From the NCBI GenBank assembly GCA_002726515.1, contig PBTE01000061.1, forward strand, positions 1-64,000: a stretch of 64,000 bases of DNA. The letters run 5' to 3'. The translations under genes were made by a program, and so were the position numbers. Source of the stretch: Planctomycetaceae bacterium (lineage in GTDB: Bacteria; Planctomycetota; Planctomycetia; Pirellulales; Pirellulaceae). Positions 8,656 to 19,162 of this stretch are shown in pieces. Each line of letters opens with the position of its first letter. Position 1 is the first letter of the stretch. The notes under the pieces are model-generated. The model saw only the letters and a program-made list of their open reading frames with translations, did not search any database and was not told the origin of the DNA.

Positions 8656-10461
8656 ATGGTTGTAGAAGAACTTCCTCTTCCTTTCATTGAATGGTTGGTC
8701 CAGAGCTTTCGCTATGGGCTGGCGGCGGTTGTCGTGTTTTTAATCGGAAGCCTCTTTTTCGGTTATCTTCTCAGCACCTTTCGCTATGGTGCGTCCGAGG
8801 GGTTTTACCTGACGGCAAGGGTCATGTTTCGTGGCGTGGGCGAGTTTTTTCAAATTTCGCCGCGCAGGATTATTGCCATGGCAACCCTTGCCTTTAAAGA
8901 GGCCATTCGTCGGCGTGTGTTGGTGTCTTTCGCAGTCTTCATCGCCATTCTCCTCTTCGCGGGATGGTTTCTGGACACCGAAAGTACACAGCCTGGCCAG
9001 TTGTACATCAGTTTTGTGCTCACTTCGAGCAACTTTCTGGTCCTGGCGCTGGTTTTGCTTCTCAGCGTCTTCAGTCTGCCAACCGACATCAAACAGAAAA
9101 CAATCTATACGGTTGTGACAAAGCCGGTTCGCGCATGGGAAGTGGTTCTCGGTCGGATTGCGGGATTTTGTGCGATCGGGACTCTCATTCTTCTAGCGAT
9201 GGGAGTATTTAGTTACTGGTTTGTTGTCCGCGGCCTTGCTCACAATCACGTGGTCAACACGGACGACATCAGGTCGTCCGAATTGATTGAAGGCGGCCTG
9301 GAAGGTGAAACACTGAAAAATAAAAATCATTTTCATTCGTTTCCCGTCGATGCCAACGATCAGAGTAAAACCGACATGCGCATGGGCCACTGGCATGGTG
9401 TGACCCGCCAAGGCGAAGGAGAAAACACATCCTACCGGGTAGGTCCGGCGCAGGATGGTTTGGTAGCCAGAGTTCCCCAATATGGCAAATTGAGATTTTT
9501 GGATCGAACCGGCGCGTTGGCTGAACCCATTTCAGTTGGTTACGAGTGGACTTACCGGGGTTATTTTGAAGGTGGAACACTTGCCGCCGCGATCTGGAGA
9601 CTGGAAGGCATCACGCCGGAAAAATTTTCAGACGGATTGGAGATCTTTTGGTCGATCAGCGTTTTTCGTACTCACAAGGGGGATATTGAAAAAGGTGTGT
9701 CAGGCTCGTGGACGCTGGCGCACCCCGAAAACGACAATCAAAGCCCACCCATTCCTTTCGAATCGAAAGAATTTAGCCTCGATTCGCTGTACATTGAGCG
9801 CGAATTTGAGTTAGCGACTGGTGAAACCGTTGACATCTTCAAAGAATATGCGGATGACAAAGGACGTATGGATTTTATTCTCCGCTGCGACGACCGGGGT
9901 CAATATTTTGGGGTTGCTCAAGCCGATTTTTATCAGCACGTGGGAGACAGGAATTTTGCTTGGAACTTTGCCAAAGGCTATCTTAGCATTTGGATCCAAA
10001 TGACGTTGGTGATTGGAATGGGGGTGATGTTCAGCACGTTTTTGAGCGCACCGGTTGCCTTGTTGGCGACGTTGGGATCGGTTGTCATGGGGTTCTTTAC
10101 TTCTCACGTCAAGGAATTGGCGCTAAGCGTGTTTAATCCCGAGAACTCTACCATCGATGGGGGTGGTCCCATCGAATCCCTGATTCGACTGGTCAATCAG
10201 ATGAATGTCAGTGTGGACCTGGATCTGGGATTTGCCACGACAGTGATTCAAGCGTTGGATGCGGTGATCATGGCTTTTATGTGGGCTTTTGCTGTCATGG
10301 TGCCGGACTTCAGTCGTTTTGATATGGTGCGTTATGTGGCGGAAGGTTTCAATGTGCCTGCTGACGTGTGGTGTCAGCAGCTGGTGGCCGGTCTGGCTTA
10401 TTCTTTTGTTGTGACTTGCCTGGGATATTTTTTGCTTCGTACCAGGGAAATTGCCGCATGA
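8656..10461 (+). CDS. ABC-2 type permease with large extracytoplasmic domain
   Basis: A 601-residue membrane protein. Helices lie at about residues 12-38, 90-112, 118-145 and 168-195. A soluble stretch of about 240 residues (195-435) comes next, and further helices run to the C terminus. The soluble part contains HFHSF (about 225) and MRMGHWHG (about 245), a local His/Met cluster that could bind metal, although this is only a suggestion. The phrase PTDIKQKTIYTVVTKPVRAWEVVLGR, seen as two adjoining segments, is typical of planctomycetal ABC-2 permeases that pair with a NatA-type ATPase. The gene is coupled to its neighbours: 6 intergenic bases from the ATPase, and a 4-base ATGA overlap with the next gene. 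Substrate unknown. Confidence 0.85.
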   Translation: MVVEELPLPFIEWLVQSFRYGLAAVVVFLIGSLFFGYLLSTFRYGASEGFYLTARVMFRGVGEFFQISPRRIIAMATLAFKEAIRRRVLVSFAVFIAILLFAGWFLDTESTQPGQLYISFVLTSSNFLVLALVLLLSVFSLPTDIKQKTIYTVVTKPVRAWEVVLGRIAGFCAIGTLILLAMGVFSYWFVVRGLAHNHVVNTDDIRSSELIEGGLEGETLKNKNHFHSFPVDANDQSKTDMRMGHWHGVTRQGEGENTSYRVGPAQDGLVARVPQYGKLRFLDRTGALAEPISVGYEWTYRGYFEGGTLAAAIWRLEGITPEKFSDGLEIFWSISVFRTHKGDIEKGVSGSWTLAHPENDNQSPPIPFESKEFSLDSLYIEREFELATGETVDIFKEYADDKGRMDFILRCDDRGQYFGVAQADFYQHVGDRNFAWNFAKGYLSIWIQMTLVIGMGVMFSTFLSAPVALLATLGSVVMGFFTSHVKELALSVFNPENSTIDGGGPIESLIRLVNQMNVSVDLDLGFATTVIQALDAVIMAFMWAFAVMVPDFSRFDMVRYVAEGFNVPADVWCQQLVAGLAYSFVVTCLGYFLLRTREIAA

Positions 10462-12293
10462 ATTCTTTTCAGTGGAAAGTGTTGTACATTGCCCTGATGG
10501 CGGCCTTGCTGTTGCCTATTTCATATATCAGCCGTCCTTCGACACCTCCCCGCAAAAACGCCGAATCGGATCCCGGTGGCTGGTTGGCACAGAAAAGGGC
10601 CCAGTACGATTTGGCCCAGGCCAACCTCGGCGAGATTGATCCTGCCAGTGAAACCATGAAACTTGCCCTGTTGGGGATGCGCGGAGTCGCGGCCAACATC
10701 CTCTGGACAAAAGCCAATCACTATAAGAAGACCGAAGATTGGCCCAAGATGATGGCCACGCTGGAACAGATCACCAATCTTCAGCCCAACTTCATCTCGG
10801 TTTGGCAGTTCCAGGGTTGGAACGTAAGCTACAACGTATCGGTTGAATTTGACAATTATCTCCACCGTTATTTCTGGGTGAAGAGAGGAATCCGTTTTCT
10901 AATCGAAGGCACGCGTTACAACCGAGATGAACCCAGGTTGCTTTGGGATGTGGCTTGGTTTTTCGGCCAGAAAATCGGGCGAGCCGACGAGCACAAACAA
11001 TTTCGAGAGGAGTTTCGCAAGGATGATGATTTTCACGATTTTGTTCGTGATTACGTCATTGATTTTGATAACAGGAGCACCGGACCGTTTAACAAGCCCG
11101 ACAATTGGCGAGTGAGTCATCAGTGGTACCTCATAGCGCAAGAGACGGTAGATTCCGGTCGAGCTACCATGCGGGGACGCAGTTTACAGTCGATGATTGA
11201 AGAGAAACCCCATGAACGAAACAAGGGGAAAAGTCCGGTGTTGTTTCACTCCGGACCTGGTATGGCTCTCATCAATTACTCAGCAGCGTTGGCGGACGAA
11301 GGCATCTTTGACGAATTTTCTGAAAGTGCATGGGCGGAGGCGGGATCTGTCTGGCGGAGTTTTGGCAACCGCGAAATTCGCACGAGTCGAGATTTCTATA
11401 TTCGTCTGAATGAACAGGAGGAGCTAGAATCGGAAGTGCGCGAACTCACTAAGCAGTTGGGCGAATTGCAACCCGGCCTGGTGGAGGAAATCAGGTTGGA
11501 GAAGCGGGAGTCGCTTTCAGAAGAGCTGAAATTGGCTCTCGAGACGCCGGTCGATCAGGTGACGGAAGACCAAGTACAACTCCGCGTGGAGGCGGAACGC
11601 CTGGTGGTAGTTTCACCCGCGGAGGTTGTGGAACGAATTAATGATGAAGTTATTCGCTCCAAGGCCCGCTGGCTGGCAGAAACAATCAATGACAAAGTGA
11701 TCCGTGCAACGTTTGTGGGACAGTATAGAGACATTGTTAACTTCGACTACTGGAGAACACGTTGCACGGTGGAGCAGGCAGAAGATGCCAATCAAGCCAA
11801 GAAACATTTATATCTAGCTGACAACGATCATCGGGAGGGACGCTTGCTGCAGGCGCAGAGGAACTACGAAATTGCATGGGAGGCATGGGCGAACATTTAT
11901 GAGAAATATCCGCAGCTTCAAGAAGATGTGGGAACCGAAGATGTGGTGAATGCCGTCAAGCGATATGACAATTTGCTCGGTCAACTCGACCAGGAGTTTC
12001 CGGCAGATTTCAAATTGAAGCGAGTGGTTGATTTCCACGAAAGGGGTCGATATCGACCCTGGGAGGAAACTGGCCACACCCACTCACCGGATCATTCGAG
12101 TTCAGGTTCAGAAGGACCAGCGCTGACACCGTCGTTACCCATTGCTCCCGACCAGGGGGCGAAGGAAGGGGATCAACAGGCACCGGAAGACGCCGGAAAT
12201 GAATCGTCTGAAGATGCGGCAGCTCCTGCTGCTGACGGGGAAGTCGATTCGGTACCAGAGGAAGGTATCCCGGATGCCAGCGACAACTCTTAG
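10458..12293 (+). CDS. Membrane-anchored protein of the ABC module
   Basis: A 611-residue protein starting at ATG 10458, which overlaps the permease stop (ATGA), indicating translational coupling. One N-terminal membrane helix (about residues 7-24) is followed by a soluble domain. The first 250 residues look alpha-helical and tetratricopeptide-like (LLGMRGVAANILWTKANHY, then LEQITNLQPNFISVWQFQGW). A charged helical region follows (about 320-450), and the C terminus is Glu/Pro/Ser-rich and disordered. Similar planctomycetal proteins have been labelled 'iron responsive element' in older annotations; I treat that name as uninformative. The context suggests a periplasmic partner of the ABC-2 transporter. 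The frame extends upstream to 10368, but that part overlaps the permease. Confidence 0.8.
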   Translation: MNSFQWKVLYIALMAALLLPISYISRPSTPPRKNAESDPGGWLAQKRAQYDLAQANLGEIDPASETMKLALLGMRGVAANILWTKANHYKKTEDWPKMMATLEQITNLQPNFISVWQFQGWNVSYNVSVEFDNYLHRYFWVKRGIRFLIEGTRYNRDEPRLLWDVAWFFGQKIGRADEHKQFREEFRKDDDFHDFVRDYVIDFDNRSTGPFNKPDNWRVSHQWYLIAQETVDSGRATMRGRSLQSMIEEKPHERNKGKSPVLFHSGPGMALINYSAALADEGIFDEFSESAWAEAGSVWRSFGNREIRTSRDFYIRLNEQEELESEVRELTKQLGELQPGLVEEIRLEKRESLSEELKLALETPVDQVTEDQVQLRVEAERLVVVSPAEVVERINDEVIRSKARWLAETINDKVIRATFVGQYRDIVNFDYWRTRCTVEQAEDANQAKKHLYLADNDHREGRLLQAQRNYEIAWEAWANIYEKYPQLQEDVGTEDVVNAVKRYDNLLGQLDQEFPADFKLKRVVDFHERGRYRPWEETGHTHSPDHSSSGSEGPALTPSLPIAPDQGAKEGDQQAPEDAGNESSEDAAAPAADGEVDSVPEEGIPDASDNS

Positions 12294-12374: not shown

Positions 12375-13436
12375 TCAGTCCAGGGGCGGTTGAACAAAAG
12401 ATTGCCCCGCGTCAGCATGGCCGGATTCAGGTAACACCTGAGGGCGGATTATCTGACAACCGATGGCTTGCATGGCCCGCTGCAGCTTGATCCACGTGGT
12501 TTCGTTGGTACAGGTGCCGATGATCGCCCCCCCTGACCCGGCAAACTTTGCCGAAGCGCCGGCCGTGCGAGCTGCTTGAACCATTTCCATTTGTCTTGCT
12601 GCGATCGGAACAATAGATTGGCGCAAATCAAAATTTTCATCAATCAAATGAGCCAAAGTGATCGCGTCACCATTTTCGATTGCTTCACGAGCTGCGTCGG
12701 TGATTTGTGCAAATCGATCCATGGCCTGATGCACGGCCACGTTCCCTTGGTCATATTGAGCACGTAAGCTGTTGTGAGGGATTTCTGTCGGCTCGCTGAC
12801 CAGATCATTGTAAGCAAGGTAGAGCGGCGGCAGTAAGGAAGCATCAAGACGCTCGTATCTGCCGCATTCGTAGCCGTCTAAATTCAGACTTGTCGCCTTG
12901 GAAAAATCCATATAAACCAATCCCTCGTAGATCTGAATCACGCGATCCTGCAGACCGGCTGGTAATCCCAACTCGTCGGTTTCAACTTCGCGTACCAGTG
13001 ATGGCTGAATCTGCAAGGGAATTTCCAAATCGTAGAATTCCATCAGGCAACGCAGGGTGGCGACGATAATAGCACTGGAACCCGCCATACCCACCTGCCG
13101 TGGGATGTTGCTCTGAAAGCGAACTGAAAAGTTTGGTCGGTTCAGATCATGTCCATGGCGATCACAATAGTCGACAAACTTTTTAATGGTGGCTTTGATC
13201 AGGCGGATACCACCGTAATATCCGTGAAGCTGTACGTCGCGCACCAATCCGCGAATCGAATTGAAACGGATCTGGCTCTGGTGAGTCAGCACAATTTCCA
13301 GTTCATCCCACTCATACATCACCACTTCCGCAAAAAATTGGCGGACCATCAGTGATATTGTTTTGCCATGGTATCCATCGGATGGATTTCCGATCAGGCC
13401 GGCTCGAGCATAGGATCGATGGCGTATGATCTGCAT
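12375..13436 (-). CDS. GHMP kinase, glucuronokinase-like
   Basis: A 353-residue sugar kinase of the GHMP family. The start region HRSYARAGLIGNPSDGYHG, the glycine loop NIPRQVGMAGSSAII (about residues 120-135), the LQDRVIQIYEGLVYMDFS segment, and the C-terminal AKFAGSGGAIIG motif are all present. The combination GNPSDGYHGKTIS plus GYYGGIRL resembles, from memory, plant glucuronokinase (D-glucuronate to its 1-phosphate) more than galactokinase or mevalonate kinase. The next gene upstream encodes a UTP:sugar-1-phosphate uridylyltransferase, which would turn the product into UDP-glucuronate. The frame also has a TTG start at 13505 overlapping the upstream stop (TTGA); I chose ATG 13436 because the conserved domain begins there. 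Substrate assignment is an inference. Confidence 0.8.
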   Translation of the reverse strand: MQIIRHRSYARAGLIGNPSDGYHGKTISLMVRQFFAEVVMYEWDELEIVLTHQSQIRFNSIRGLVRDVQLHGYYGGIRLIKATIKKFVDYCDRHGHDLNRPNFSVRFQSNIPRQVGMAGSSAIIVATLRCLMEFYDLEIPLQIQPSLVREVETDELGLPAGLQDRVIQIYEGLVYMDFSKATSLNLDGYECGRYERLDASLLPPLYLAYNDLVSEPTEIPHNSLRAQYDQGNVAVHQAMDRFAQITDAAREAIENGDAITLAHLIDENFDLRQSIVPIAARQMEMVQAARTAGASAKFAGSGGAIIGTCTNETTWIKLQRAMQAIGCQIIRPQVLPESGHADAGQSFVQPPLD

Positions 13437-13501
13437 GGGAGCGATTTCAGTGCCTAGCAAATTAGCGTGTTTTGCTGCGAAAGAGGAATGTGGAAGACTT
13501 G

Positions 13502-14407
13502 TCAAAGTCCAAGGTCGCCAGACGGCTTAGCGAGCAAACCTTCGAGATGCTCGCGCAACAGGTGTCCGTAGTCCGGGTCGGCCAGCGCAAATTCGGTGAA
13601 TGCCCGAAAGTAGCTGCCGAAATTGCCGATGTCGAAGCGCTGTTCGTGAGCGGCCAGTCGCACACCCATCACCCGTTTTCCATCCCGAATCAGGCTCCGT
13701 AATGCGTCGGTCAGTTGGATTTCACCACCCGCGCCAGGCGGAGTTTCGGCCAGCCTCGTAAAGACAGCAGGACTACAGACGTAACGCGCGGCAATAGCAA
13801 GATTGCTGGGCGCATCGGCGACGGAGGGTTTTTCTACCAAGTCTTCCAACTCAAAGACGTCGACCGGATCACCTTTCGGCTGGGCGATTCCGTAACGCGA
13901 CACCTCCCGGGGCGGTACTTCCTCAAAGGCAATGGTGGCTGCGGCACCTTCTCCCTCGAACACATCTATCATGCGCCGGACGATGTCTGACTGCGCGTTC
14001 AATCCGATGATTGAATCACCCAGCGCCACCACGAAAGGCTGCCGGTCAAGCAGGGGGCGCGCGCAGAGCACTGCGTGGCCGAGCCCCAATTGACGGCGTT
14101 GGCGAGTGTAAAAATATTCCATCGTGTGCCGTTCGAACTCCAGTTCCAACAAAAGTTCTTCCTTGCCCTCGGTTCGCAAAAGCTGAATTAACTCGCTGTT
14201 TTCATCAAAATGGTTTTCGATGGCGGTCTTCCCCGGACCAGTAACGAATAACTGTCGCCGTATCCCGGAGCGCGCCAATTCTTCGACCACGTATTGCACT
14301 ACAGGCTTGCGGCCCACTGGCAACATTTCTTTGGGTTGACTCTTGGTGAGCGGCAGAAGTCGTGTGCCGTGTCCAGCGACGGGGATGATTGCGATATCGA
14401 TCGACAT
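13502..14407 (-). CDS. galU: UTP-glucose-1-phosphate uridylyltransferase
   Basis: A 301-residue nucleotidyltransferase that makes a UDP-sugar from UTP and a sugar 1-phosphate in the cytoplasm. The N-terminal signature VAGHGTRLLPLTKSQPKEML is complete; the usual third Ala/Gly of the loop is His (AGHGTR rather than AGLGTR). LGLGHAVLCARPLL and VVALGDSIIG match the GalU active-site strands, and VEKPSVADAPSNLAIAARY matches the sugar-binding region. Length fits GalU. It is the first gene of a two-gene unit with the GHMP kinase, so its natural sugar phosphate may include glucuronate 1-phosphate. Confidence 0.88.
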   Translation of the reverse strand: MSIDIAIIPVAGHGTRLLPLTKSQPKEMLPVGRKPVVQYVVEELARSGIRRQLFVTGPGKTAIENHFDENSELIQLLRTEGKEELLLELEFERHTMEYFYTRQRRQLGLGHAVLCARPLLDRQPFVVALGDSIIGLNAQSDIVRRMIDVFEGEGAAATIAFEEVPPREVSRYGIAQPKGDPVDVFELEDLVEKPSVADAPSNLAIAARYVCSPAVFTRLAETPPGAGGEIQLTDALRSLIRDGKRVMGVRLAAHEQRFDIGNFGSYFRAFTEFALADPDYGHLLREHLEGLLAKPSGDLGL

Positions 14408-14928: not shown

Positions 14929-15879
14929 GTGGAACAGGTGGAAACATTCGAAAAAATCTACCACGAACGGATGGAAGAGGCCCGTAAGTACCCTCTGCCA
15001 GCAGAGAACAAGAGCAAATTTATGCGGGGTGTTGTGAAAGCGTTCTTGCGGTCAATCATCATTCCGGGTGGCCACCTGACTCGAGAAATGAGAGACGCCG
15101 TTTCGAGCCTGTGTGAGCAAGGGGTCTTCCAGCTTTGTTTGGATGGCGTAAGCGAGGTTGCAGACTGCGACCTGTTTTTTGGAAACCATCAAGGTCCCAA
15201 ACGGCCCGGTGGCCCACAAGGTGGAATAGAAGTCTTGTTCAGCACACAGTTTGTAAGAAATGCTACACGATATGTTCTGCGAGAAAACCTGATTGAATAC
15301 CGCTGGTCGGTCACGCAGTGCATCAAGGCGCGCGCCACGCGCAAGCCGAATCCTATCGTTGTCAGGGATAATGATCGCCTGCAGAAAGCTCGCGATCAGA
15401 AAGCTCCCTGGGCTGAGATAAAACAAACGGCGATTGGACTGAAGAAGGAACGCCAGCGAGTTGCCGCAGAGGTCTTTCGCGCAATTGATGTTGGAACTCC
15501 TGTCGCAATCTATCCAGAAGGGACCCGGTCGACCACGGGACGGATTCTCCCTTTTGTGAGCGACTTCATGCGGAAGGCGATCACCGATTACATCGTTCCA
15601 CGCATGTTAGCGGGAAAGCCCCGTCGAATAGGTTTGATCGTTGCCGAAACGTTACAAACGTTTCCCGACGGAGTCGGAAAAGGGGCCTTGCTCTGCGATC
15701 GACCCAGCACCCTGAAGGGCGTGCGGTATGACACGGGTTCGATTGAAGCGGAGTACCGGAAGATGCGCCATCTGAAACACAAAGATTATGAGACTGCCAT
15801 GACGAGGCTTTCCCGTACATTGGCGTTGTCTCTTCGGGATACCTTTGAACAGGAACTGCGAGCGATTTTACAGAAGTGA
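14929..15879 (+). CDS. PlsC-like acyltransferase domain protein
   Basis: A 316-residue protein with two features of the glycerol-3-phosphate/lysophosphatidate acyltransferase family. One is an NH motif after a hydrophobic strand (CDLFFGNHQGPKRPGG, about residues 82-97); the other is VAIYPEGTRSTTGRILPF (about 188-205), the FPEGTRS block. However, the HX4D pair is incomplete: the position four after His is Arg/Pro-rich and no Asp follows, so catalysis may differ or be lost. No membrane helix is obvious; the N terminus is charged and helical. The frame begins with GTG 14929; ATG 14971 is an alternative start and no clear ribosome site decides. It is a single gene, possibly acting in lipid remodelling. 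Confidence 0.65.
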   Translation: MEQVETFEKIYHERMEEARKYPLPAENKSKFMRGVVKAFLRSIIIPGGHLTREMRDAVSSLCEQGVFQLCLDGVSEVADCDLFFGNHQGPKRPGGPQGGIEVLFSTQFVRNATRYVLRENLIEYRWSVTQCIKARATRKPNPIVVRDNDRLQKARDQKAPWAEIKQTAIGLKKERQRVAAEVFRAIDVGTPVAIYPEGTRSTTGRILPFVSDFMRKAITDYIVPRMLAGKPRRIGLIVAETLQTFPDGVGKGALLCDRPSTLKGVRYDTGSIEAEYRKMRHLKHKDYETAMTRLSRTLALSLRDTFEQELRAILQK

Positions 15880-16248: not shown

Positions 16249-17109
16249 ATGGGCGTTTTTGAATCTGATGCCATTTCCAAATCGGCGGTCAGGAAAACCT
16301 TTCCTGACAGTCAACAACTGGCTCAAGTAGAGCGAGAGTTGCAGTTTTACCCGAGCACCGTCGAAACACCACGGGAGCTGTCGAGAAATCAAATTGAGAA
16401 ATTTAATCAGTGCGGGTACATTCAAGGTATCGATGTGTTGTCGGATTCGGAAGTCAACGAGCACTGCCAGTTGTTTGATGGATTATTGAGATCCGTTGTT
16501 CAGGAGGGGGGGAGCAGCTATTCGATCGTTTCAGCGCACTTAAAGTACGGTCGAGTTTACGACCTGCTCACCAATCCTCGGATCGTGGCCTGCGTGCAGG
16601 ACATCCTGGGAGAGGATGTGATTGGTTGGGGGGCCCACTATTTCTGTAAAATGCCGGGCGACGGAAAAATAATTGCCTGGCACCAGGATGCCAGTTACTG
16701 GCCACTGACCCCGTCAAAGACCCTGACGGTTTGGCTGGCAATCGATGATGCTGATGCAGAAAATGCCTGCATGCAGGTCATTTCTGGTACCCACCTGCGG
16801 GGTCATCTCTCTTTTCGTGCTAGTAGTGAAGAAGAACAAAACATTTTGACTCAGACAGTAATCGACGCGGAACAGTACGGTGAAGTAGTCGATGTCGGCC
16901 TGAAAGCTGGCCAAATTTCTATCCATAGCGATTTGTTACTGCATGGATCCGGGGCGAACCATTCTAGCCGAAGAAGGTGTGGTTTGACCCTTCGTTATTG
17001 TACGACAGATGTTCGCGGCTCATATGGATGGAATGATGAGGGTGTGATTGTCAGTGGAAAGGACTCCAGTGGCCATTGGGCGAATCCGCCTCGACCAGCG
17101 AATGACTGA
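16249..17109 (+). CDS. Phytanoyl-CoA dioxygenase family protein
   Basis: A 286-residue Fe(II)/2-oxoglutarate oxygenase of the PhyH family. The metal triad is visible: His and Asp in WHQDASYWP (about residues 144-152) and the distal His in SDLLLHGSGANHS (about 228). The 2-oxoglutarate Arg is probably in GLTLRYCTTD. Because the second ligand is Asp rather than Ala, it should hydroxylate rather than halogenate. The substrate is unknown; planctomycetes carry many such paralogues. GGAAG lies just before the ATG. It converges on the RraA remnant with 15 bases between the stops. Confidence 0.87.
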   Translation: MGVFESDAISKSAVRKTFPDSQQLAQVERELQFYPSTVETPRELSRNQIEKFNQCGYIQGIDVLSDSEVNEHCQLFDGLLRSVVQEGGSSYSIVSAHLKYGRVYDLLTNPRIVACVQDILGEDVIGWGAHYFCKMPGDGKIIAWHQDASYWPLTPSKTLTVWLAIDDADAENACMQVISGTHLRGHLSFRASSEEEQNILTQTVIDAEQYGEVVDVGLKAGQISIHSDLLLHGSGANHSSRRRCGLTLRYCTTDVRGSYGWNDEGVIVSGKDSSGHWANPPRPAND

Positions 17110-17569: not shown

Positions 17570-19162
17570 TCAGACCTCTCTCGCTGCCGGATGAGGTGCC
17601 TTGCGGATCGACTTGCCGGCCTGTAGCTTGGGCCAGGAATGACGTGTTGGATCAAGCAACCGAGTGGGGCTGAAATATTCTGGCGGAAAATCATCGGGTT
17701 CCTGGTTACGACCCAGGATGCGGTTGACAATACAGCGGGCCCCATTGAACCCAACCGCCGAGCCAGAGCCGGCCATACCGCCAATGATGTATTGACGTTT
17801 GCCGTCCATCGTTCCCACGACTGGAAATTCATCGGGAGTGTATGTCACCGTGCCACTCCATTCGTTGTTGATTTGATAATCAAATCGGCCGTAGAATTTT
17901 TTGAGTTGTGCGCTACAGAATTTAGTCAGGAATCGCGAGGGCTGAATGCGGCCGGCCTGATAATCCGGAACCCAGGTAGCGTCAGAGCCCACGATGACCG
18001 CGTTTCCGTGCCGGCCAAAAAATCCGTTAGTTCCAGAAATACCCATGAACGGTTTTAAGCTTTCCGGTCCGCCGCTACCTGTAGCCGCTTGTGTCTGGGT
18101 GGGTCGCATCAGACCACTGAATTGGCGATGCAGCAGCGCCGTGTACGACTCGGTACAGTTGACGACATGCCGGGCTCGAATGTCCCCACGCCGGGTGCGT
18201 ACCAGATAGTACTCTCCCCGATCCTCGACCCTTACGACTTTTGTCTGAGAATAGAGTTCGAAGGAATCACGTTCCAGAGCCCGTTGCACGAGACTCCAGC
18301 ACCATTTGGCAGGATGGAATGTAGCCGCAGCGAGGGAAAATCCGGCGTTGTGACGTACTTGCATGCCCGAAAGTTGTTCGACTTGTTCTGGGGTAATGCT
18401 GGTCCAATCGTCGAAGCCGGACTCCAGGGCCATGTGGACCGACTCTTGGAGCGACATCTGTTCATTTTCATCCCGGGCCTGTACCCAACCTTCACGTGCG
18501 TAATCGCACTCGAACCCCTCTTTTCGAATTGTAGTTTCGATCAAATCGGCGTTGCGATAACAACCGCTACAGTAGGCTGCCGCAAACTGACGCGCCAGCA
18601 GTTCGTGATCATCCTGATTCAAATCAGGACGAGCCATGGGTAGGTGTTTCAGCACGGTTATGTAAACCATATGGTAATAGCGACCCATGACTATCAGGCC
18701 TTCGTTACGCCCGGCCGAACCGCTGGCAACGTCATCCATTTCTAACACGATCAATTGCCGTTGAGCCGGTGCACATGTGGCCCAGTGGTAAGCCATGGCG
18801 CTACCGGCCAGCCCGCAACCGATTGCTACAGTATCAGTTTCTTCAGGTAGGGTCGCGCGGGGGTTCTGGCACCATGGATGATTGGCCAATGGATTTCCCT
18901 CAGCCAGCCAGAATGGCACACGGGATACGGGACGGGAAAAGCGAATATCGCGCATGATGTCGGGGAGATCGAACCAGACTTGCCGCCACGCCCAGATCAG
19001 AAACTTTCGCAACTTGGCAAGCCAGGTCGCGTCGGGCCATTGCGTACTTGCGAATGTCCGGGCCGCACGAAAATCGTGACAGCGCAAACCCAGAAGCAGC
19101 CCGATTATGACGCGAATGCGAAAAAGAATCGTCGGTGGTGGAAGGGGTTTGGAGTGTCTCAT
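17570..19162 (-). CDS. FAD-dependent oxidoreductase (DAO family)
   Basis: A 530-residue flavoenzyme of the D-amino-acid oxidase/glycine oxidase fold. The dinucleotide motif is VAIGCGLAGSAMAYH (about residues 92-106), a GxGxxG form, followed by an acidic strand end (VLEMDDVASGSAGRNEG), with the SGRNEG-like loop that often contacts flavin. The C-terminal part has TPDEFPVVGTMDGKRQYI and GMAGSGSAVGFNGARC, matching the flavin-binding C-terminal block. About 85 extra N-terminal residues precede the FAD domain and include a hydrophobic stretch (VIIGLLLGL). The gene starts 16 bases after the AhpD-like gene stop, so they are probably co-transcribed. Substrate unknown. Confidence 0.85.
   Translation of the reverse strand: MRHSKPLPPPTILFRIRVIIGLLLGLRCHDFRAARTFASTQWPDATWLAKLRKFLIWAWRQVWFDLPDIMRDIRFSRPVSRVPFWLAEGNPLANHPWCQNPRATLPEETDTVAIGCGLAGSAMAYHWATCAPAQRQLIVLEMDDVASGSAGRNEGLIVMGRYYHMVYITVLKHLPMARPDLNQDDHELLARQFAAAYCSGCYRNADLIETTIRKEGFECDYAREGWVQARDENEQMSLQESVHMALESGFDDWTSITPEQVEQLSGMQVRHNAGFSLAAATFHPAKWCWSLVQRALERDSFELYSQTKVVRVEDRGEYYLVRTRRGDIRARHVVNCTESYTALLHRQFSGLMRPTQTQAATGSGGPESLKPFMGISGTNGFFGRHGNAVIVGSDATWVPDYQAGRIQPSRFLTKFCSAQLKKFYGRFDYQINNEWSGTVTYTPDEFPVVGTMDGKRQYIIGGMAGSGSAVGFNGARCIVNRILGRNQEPDDFPPEYFSPTRLLDPTRHSWPKLQAGKSIRKAPHPAAREV

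Follow-up and report, generated by a model that had tools for sequence, protein, structure and literature searches.

A Planctomycetaceae genome encodes, side by side on one strand, a sugar kinase of the GHMP family and a GalU-type uridylyltransferase, and the question is which sugar this pair activates. The window, by which we mean the whole 64,000-nucleotide stretch of DNA analysed here, contains both genes. The usual assumption is that oxidation of UDP-glucose is the sole bacterial source of UDP-glucuronate. The first-pass annotation of this DNA instead read the pair as a salvage route from free glucuronate to UDP-glucuronate, a prediction that is now backed by the glucuronokinase-type clade in which the kinase falls, by the conserved pairing of the two genes and by their co-occurrence across genomes. 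We consider it likely that the pair salvages D-glucuronate to UDP-glucuronate through the kinase and a dedicated GalU-type enzyme. In this scheme the two genes would form one transcription unit dedicated to the salvage of free D-glucuronate. The kinase would phosphorylate glucuronate at C1 with ATP, and the resulting glucuronate 1-phosphate would react with UTP on the GalU-type enzyme to give UDP-glucuronate; this would presumably go into surface polysaccharides and add to the supply from the UDP-glucose dehydrogenase route. The putative source of the glucuronate is more likely the breakdown of uronic-acid polysaccharides than myo-inositol.

Both reading frames lie on the minus strand where they had been annotated, with the GalU-type gene, which has an ATG start, as the upstream member (Table 1). 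The longest kinase frame (12375-13505) opens with a TTG, encodes 376 amino acids and overlaps the GalU stop by 4 bp, as the first-pass annotation had remarked. However, the kinases of relatives have their first residue opposite residue 24 of this frame, which is the ATG at 13436 (MQIIRHRSYARAG); their N-termini, for example MELIRKRAFARA, can be compared with the window's MQIIRHRSYARA in the start-site alignment. The true start is thus probably this ATG, giving a protein of ~353 residues, and the two genes would then be 65 bp apart with no overlap, the gap falling inside the 5' extension of the longest frame. The overlap is therefore real for that frame but an artefact for the gene. Genes on the opposite strand flank the pair, namely an uncharacterised ORF (10368-12293) and an acyltransferase-like ORF (14929-15879). 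Elsewhere in the window we observed a PhyH-type dioxygenase (16249-17109, plus strand), whose nearest NCBIfam models, chlorinating enzyme and methylphosphonate hydroxylase, both scored below their cut-offs, and near it an FAD oxidoreductase (17570-19162, minus strand) for which a putative aminophosphonate oxidoreductase is the top-scoring model.

Table 1 Features of the kinase-GalU locus in window coordinates, with the evidence for each
Feature	Coordinates	Strand	Evidence and remarks
Glucuronokinase-type GHMP sugar-1-kinase, probable true CDS	12375..13436	-	353 aa + stop, ATG start; Pfam GHMP N + C; relatives' starts align; AlphaFold2 mean pLDDT 91.9
5' extension of longest kinase frame, TTG start, probably untranslated	13437..13505	-	Missing in most relatives
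GalU-type sugar-1-phosphate uridylyltransferase, 301 aa	13502..14407	-	PF00483 5.6e-29; TIGR01099 280 bits (cut-off 326.8); orthologues beside relatives' kinases
Arg188 (longest-frame numbering; residue 165 of 353-aa form), after Asp187 in GLQDR	12942..12944	-	Conserved-column comparison

In Pfam, the kinase scored over the cut-offs for both GHMP domains (GHMP_kinases_N, PF00288, 4.4e-12; GHMP_kinases_C, PF08544), and among the NCBIfam equivalogs it reached no cut-off, those for heptose, homoserine, mevalonate and galactose kinases included. The mevalonate kinase model gave 57 bits against a cut-off of 163, the ThrB model TIGR00191 gave 17.8 against 168, and the HddA model NF049969 gave 33.4 against 600, the last being a strict cut-off, as the genome's own HddA-like gene (contig C228) scores only 158 bits. 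These scores, together with the tree described below, rule out identity as a heptose, homoserine or mevalonate kinase; a grouping with heptose or homoserine kinases was the outcome that the first-pass annotation had named as fatal to its reading, and the kinase stands apart from both. The nearest solved sequences were heptose and mevalonate kinases with E ~1e-9 or weaker, and no structure named glucuronokinase was among the PDB sequence matches. A structure search with the AlphaFold2 model placed galactokinases, a heptokinase and mevalonate kinases at similar scores (Z ~31-33), and matches to a modelled fold that lie so close together do not single out a substrate. The presence of galactokinases and a heptokinase among the closest folds (Z ~33) leaves the substrate unfixed and so lends something to a different reading, in which this sugar-1-kinase acts on galacturonate, some other uronate or a neutral sugar, and the GalU-type partner makes the matching UDP-sugar.

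We next turn to sequence relatives. Eighty public contigs, mostly metagenome bins, carry kinases 47-64% identical to the window's, under the labels Planctomycetota, Chloroflexota, Acidobacteriota, Balneolota, Verrucomicrobiota, Desulfobacterota, Aminicenantes, Abditibacteriota, Hydrogenedentota and Actinomycetota. Judged from these sequences, the kinase belongs to a distinct clade spanning about ten phyla. For the plant glucuronokinase (Arabidopsis GlcAK1, EC 2.7.1.43), itself a GHMP kinase of similar length, we used a provisional sequence, fixed before that of any relative was known and not taken from a database record. This provisional GlcAK1 was 40.7% identical to the window kinase over 322 residues and 41-50% identical to all 80 relatives. 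The HddA-like kinase of the window's genome gave 27% over 189 aa, and E. coli GalK gave no significant match. In a maximum-likelihood tree the bacterial family and the provisional plant sequence formed one clade (support 100/99), apart from E. coli GalK and from two kinases of the window's genome, one HddA-like and one galactokinase-like, and the provisional sequence branched with the bacterial family at 98-100 support. A deeper bacterial branch, clade C, falls outside the branch holding the provisional plant sequence and the window's kinase, so that the plant sequence is bracketed by bacterial ones; outside the family comes a sister clade, D (L155-L159), followed by HddA and GalK. At five or six positions conserved in the family the window kinase has a different residue, S77, F130 and Q250 among them; at those compared, the provisional GlcAK1 has the family residue (for example Tyr at 130 and Arg at 250), which argues for a genuine homologue rather than a copy of the window's sequence.

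The motifs that had been quoted as signs of a plant-type glucuronokinase are all present: GNPSDGYHG (residues 39-47), GYYGGIRL (95-102) and NIPRQ...GSSAII (133-147). Every family member has N40, P41, R188, H244, R295, R313 and S324, whereas all three outgroups differ at these positions; the provisional plant sequence has the same residues, which argues against a kinase for some other sugar. Position 188 is Gln in HddA and GalK, His in a galactokinase-like fusion and Ala, His or Gln in clade D. Arg188 lies directly after the catalytic-type Asp187 and may be the contact for the uronate carboxylate.

Published enzymology bears on the same point. Zebrafish glucuronokinase, which is fused behind a nucleotidyltransferase of bacterial type, uses glucuronate specifically, with a Km of 31 uM, and does not act on galacturonate or on seven further sugars, and plant galacturonokinase was described as very different in sequence (PMC3938481). 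Among the bacterial relatives, moreover, UDP-glucose dehydrogenase and MIOX (inositol oxygenase) genes adjoin some of the kinases, again speaking for glucuronate over another substrate. On the other side stands clade D, a GalU-paired sister branch that does not carry the Arg signature, and substrates in the wider clade may vary. Weighing these points, we regard a different sugar as an unlikely substrate, at perhaps the level of a serious minority view. The kinase step of glucuronate salvage is predicted by homology to enzymes with measured activity; in the literature searched, measured glucuronokinase biochemistry comes from plants and fish.

The kinases of clade D (L155-L159, from genomes G097, G135, G172, G117 and G103) have GNPTD, and each lies directly downstream of a GalU-type gene; from these sequence features, their substrate is likely to differ from that of the window family. 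Because clade D has the GalU gene yet lacks Arg188, the presence of a GalU partner is not enough to tell the sugar of the kinase. In clade C (L110, L112-L115, L135 and L137) the partner is a short nucleotidyltransferase of ~250 aa, and the pairs usually lie beside a Gfo/Idh/MocA oxidoreductase. One clade C locus (L110, 2264-3928, minus strand) encodes a single 554-aa protein in which the kinase precedes the short nucleotidyltransferase, opposite to the zebrafish arrangement. Open-frame length had suggested a fusion at L135 as well, which proved to be two abutting genes.

The partner of the window kinase had been annotated both as GalU-type and as a UDP-sugar pyrophosphorylase. The first description holds, as the protein belongs to the GalU-type uridylyltransferase family (NTP_transferase, PF00483) and its best PDB matches are GalU proteins. 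However, it does not belong to the UDP-sugar pyrophosphorylase family of plants: the UDPGP domain, PF01704, was absent among its Pfam matches, and the genome has a separate PF01704 gene on contig C26. With GalU it shares the fold family and the motifs GTR-LP-TK--PKEML and VEKP, whereas it has LGDS and DIGNF where E. coli GalU has LPDV and DCGNK, and its 280.3 bits fall below the TIGR01099 cut-off for the GalU equivalog. It also differs from GalU in its occurrence, which follows the kinase and not a housekeeping pattern.

This last point was weighed with care, since the neighbour could be a plain housekeeping UDP-glucose pyrophosphorylase, with the kinase adjacent by chance or for an unrelated product. 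It is the genome's only strong GalU and keeps the general GalU sequence, and UDP-glucose feeds UDP-glucose dehydrogenase, the genome encoding three NDP-sugar dehydrogenases. Against this, the PF01704 enzyme of the genome could make UDP-glucose, the neighbour scores under the NCBIfam GalU cut-off, and the distribution of the gene is not that of a housekeeping function. A GalU-type gene is adjacent to the kinase on the same strand in 72 of the 80 relatives, directly upstream in 50 and directly downstream in 22, and at least two of the other eight (L005 and L080) lie near the end of their contig stretch on the side where the GalU would be expected. The orthologues beside relatives' kinases are 60-73% identical to the window's GalU, and the downstream type is a different branch, 39-45% identical over the full length, so the coupling of kinase and GalU recurs in two gene orders. 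We set aside some large neighbour clusters from a simple ORF scan because they consisted of antisense ORFs. Conservation of the GalU neighbour on this scale rules out chance adjacency or a frame artefact and, from gene order, indicates that the kinase is functionally tied to the GalU-type gene. In Phycisphaera-group loci (L065, L069, L071 and L078) the kinase and GalU, in this order, stand between a UDP-glucose dehydrogenase gene ahead of them and a UDP-sugar epimerase gene after them, a neighbourhood whose predicted content is UDP-glucuronate metabolism.

The pairing that the first-pass annotation had proposed is likewise borne out across whole genomes. Counting as the kinase any match within 1e-30 of the window's, which excludes clade C, we found kinase and GalU together in 14 of 294 genomes of the phylum, the kinase only in 3, the GalU only in 9 and neither in 268 (Fisher p=1.7e-15, an optimistic value, as the test ignores shared ancestry). 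In four of the nine genomes with the GalU only, a clade D kinase adjoins that GalU. Within the window's class every genome with the kinase has exactly one such GalU (7/7 kinase-bearing relatives tested) and every kinase-free genome has none (12/12 kinase-free relatives). Thus the GalU travels with the kinase in this lineage and is not housekeeping there, and we consider a housekeeping role improbable. For glucuronate salvage, the gene pairing points weakly to the second step, acceptance of glucuronate 1-phosphate by the GalU-type enzyme, and the transfer is weakened by the near-inactivity of the zebrafish pyrophosphorylase domain (PMC3938481).

In plants, the partner of glucuronokinase is a PF01704-type UDP-sugar pyrophosphorylase encoded elsewhere, and the route is fed by MIOX, whereas the window has an adjacent GalU-type partner in a genome without MIOX. 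The link to inositol oxygenase drawn in the first-pass annotation was not supported: a profile search for MIOX (PF05153), which does detect the enzyme in other genomes, did not find it in the window's assembly, which is 94.8% complete, and this speaks strongly against a MIOX-fed pathway in this organism. MIOX occurs in eight genomes of the phylum sample, and only one of these (G072) also has a kinase of this kind, so the two are not associated. That the pair serves a plant-type inositol-to-UDP-glucuronate pathway, with MIOX supplying the glucuronate, is accordingly a very improbable reading, although MIOX is present in 4 of 42 kinase-bearing genomes and lies beside the kinase in one distant relative. 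In that clade C locus (L113, 1464-5204) MIOX is divergent from the kinase and short nucleotidyltransferase, with 58 bp between the start codons, and an IolG-like Gfo/Idh/MocA oxidoreductase is convergent downstream; its gene content makes it a possible complete bacterial inositol-to-UDP-glucuronate cluster.

Among the closest known arrangements is the zebrafish and Xenopus GKUP (PMC3938481), in which, as in the window, a glucuronokinase-type kinase is coupled to a bacterial-type nucleotidyltransferase. GKUP is a fusion of pyrophosphorylase then kinase, and its partner domain is short (~260 aa), whereas the window has two separate ORFs and a 301-aa GalU; the bacterial fusion in clade C has the reverse domain order. 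FKP (fucokinase/GDP-fucose pyrophosphorylase) and HddA/HddC also couple a GHMP sugar-1-kinase to a nucleotidyltransferase, but their kinase clades and products differ from the window's, the HddA cut-off being missed by far (33 of 600 bits). Glucuronokinase is already known as a kind of enzyme, and its name is already in use for bacteria in function predictions, being listed among the predicted functions of bacterial communities (PMC8571626). In the literature searched, including 'glucuronate kinase' with bacteria, we found no characterised bacterial glucuronokinase. The conserved GalU partner, the fused bacterial form and the breadth across phyla are new, their function being predicted.

Bacteria thus probably have a UDP-glucuronic acid salvage route of their own, as far as can be read from sequence. 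For the broader proposal the chances seem to us evenly balanced: that about ten bacterial phyla share a MIOX-independent salvage to UDP-glucuronate, that a GalU branch has turned into a glucuronate-1-phosphate uridylyltransferase, that the plant kinase is nested in the family and that the fused enzyme of animals has its equivalent in bacteria. If true, it would change the annotation of uronate flux in planctomycetes, acidobacteria, verrucomicrobia and chloroflexi, and a working partner enzyme would be the positive control that the zebrafish study (PMC3938481) was without. A further use would be the production of UDP-glucuronate from cheap glucuronate with a pair of bacterial enzymes.

The genome of the window holds another coupling of a kinase with a nucleotidyltransferase, and perhaps one more. 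On contig C57 (34833-38096, L099), an ORF of ~900 aa has a GlmU-like nucleotidyltransferase region at its N-terminus and a galactokinase-like kinase at its C-terminus, the kinase part having the galactose-binding signature PF10509 at 3.5e-15. On contig C228 (~10.1-11.1 kb, L098/L086), the HddA-like kinase lies near a 487-aa frame that has a weak match to GalU, and by their sequences the two are possibly a heptose kinase/nucleotidyltransferase pair.
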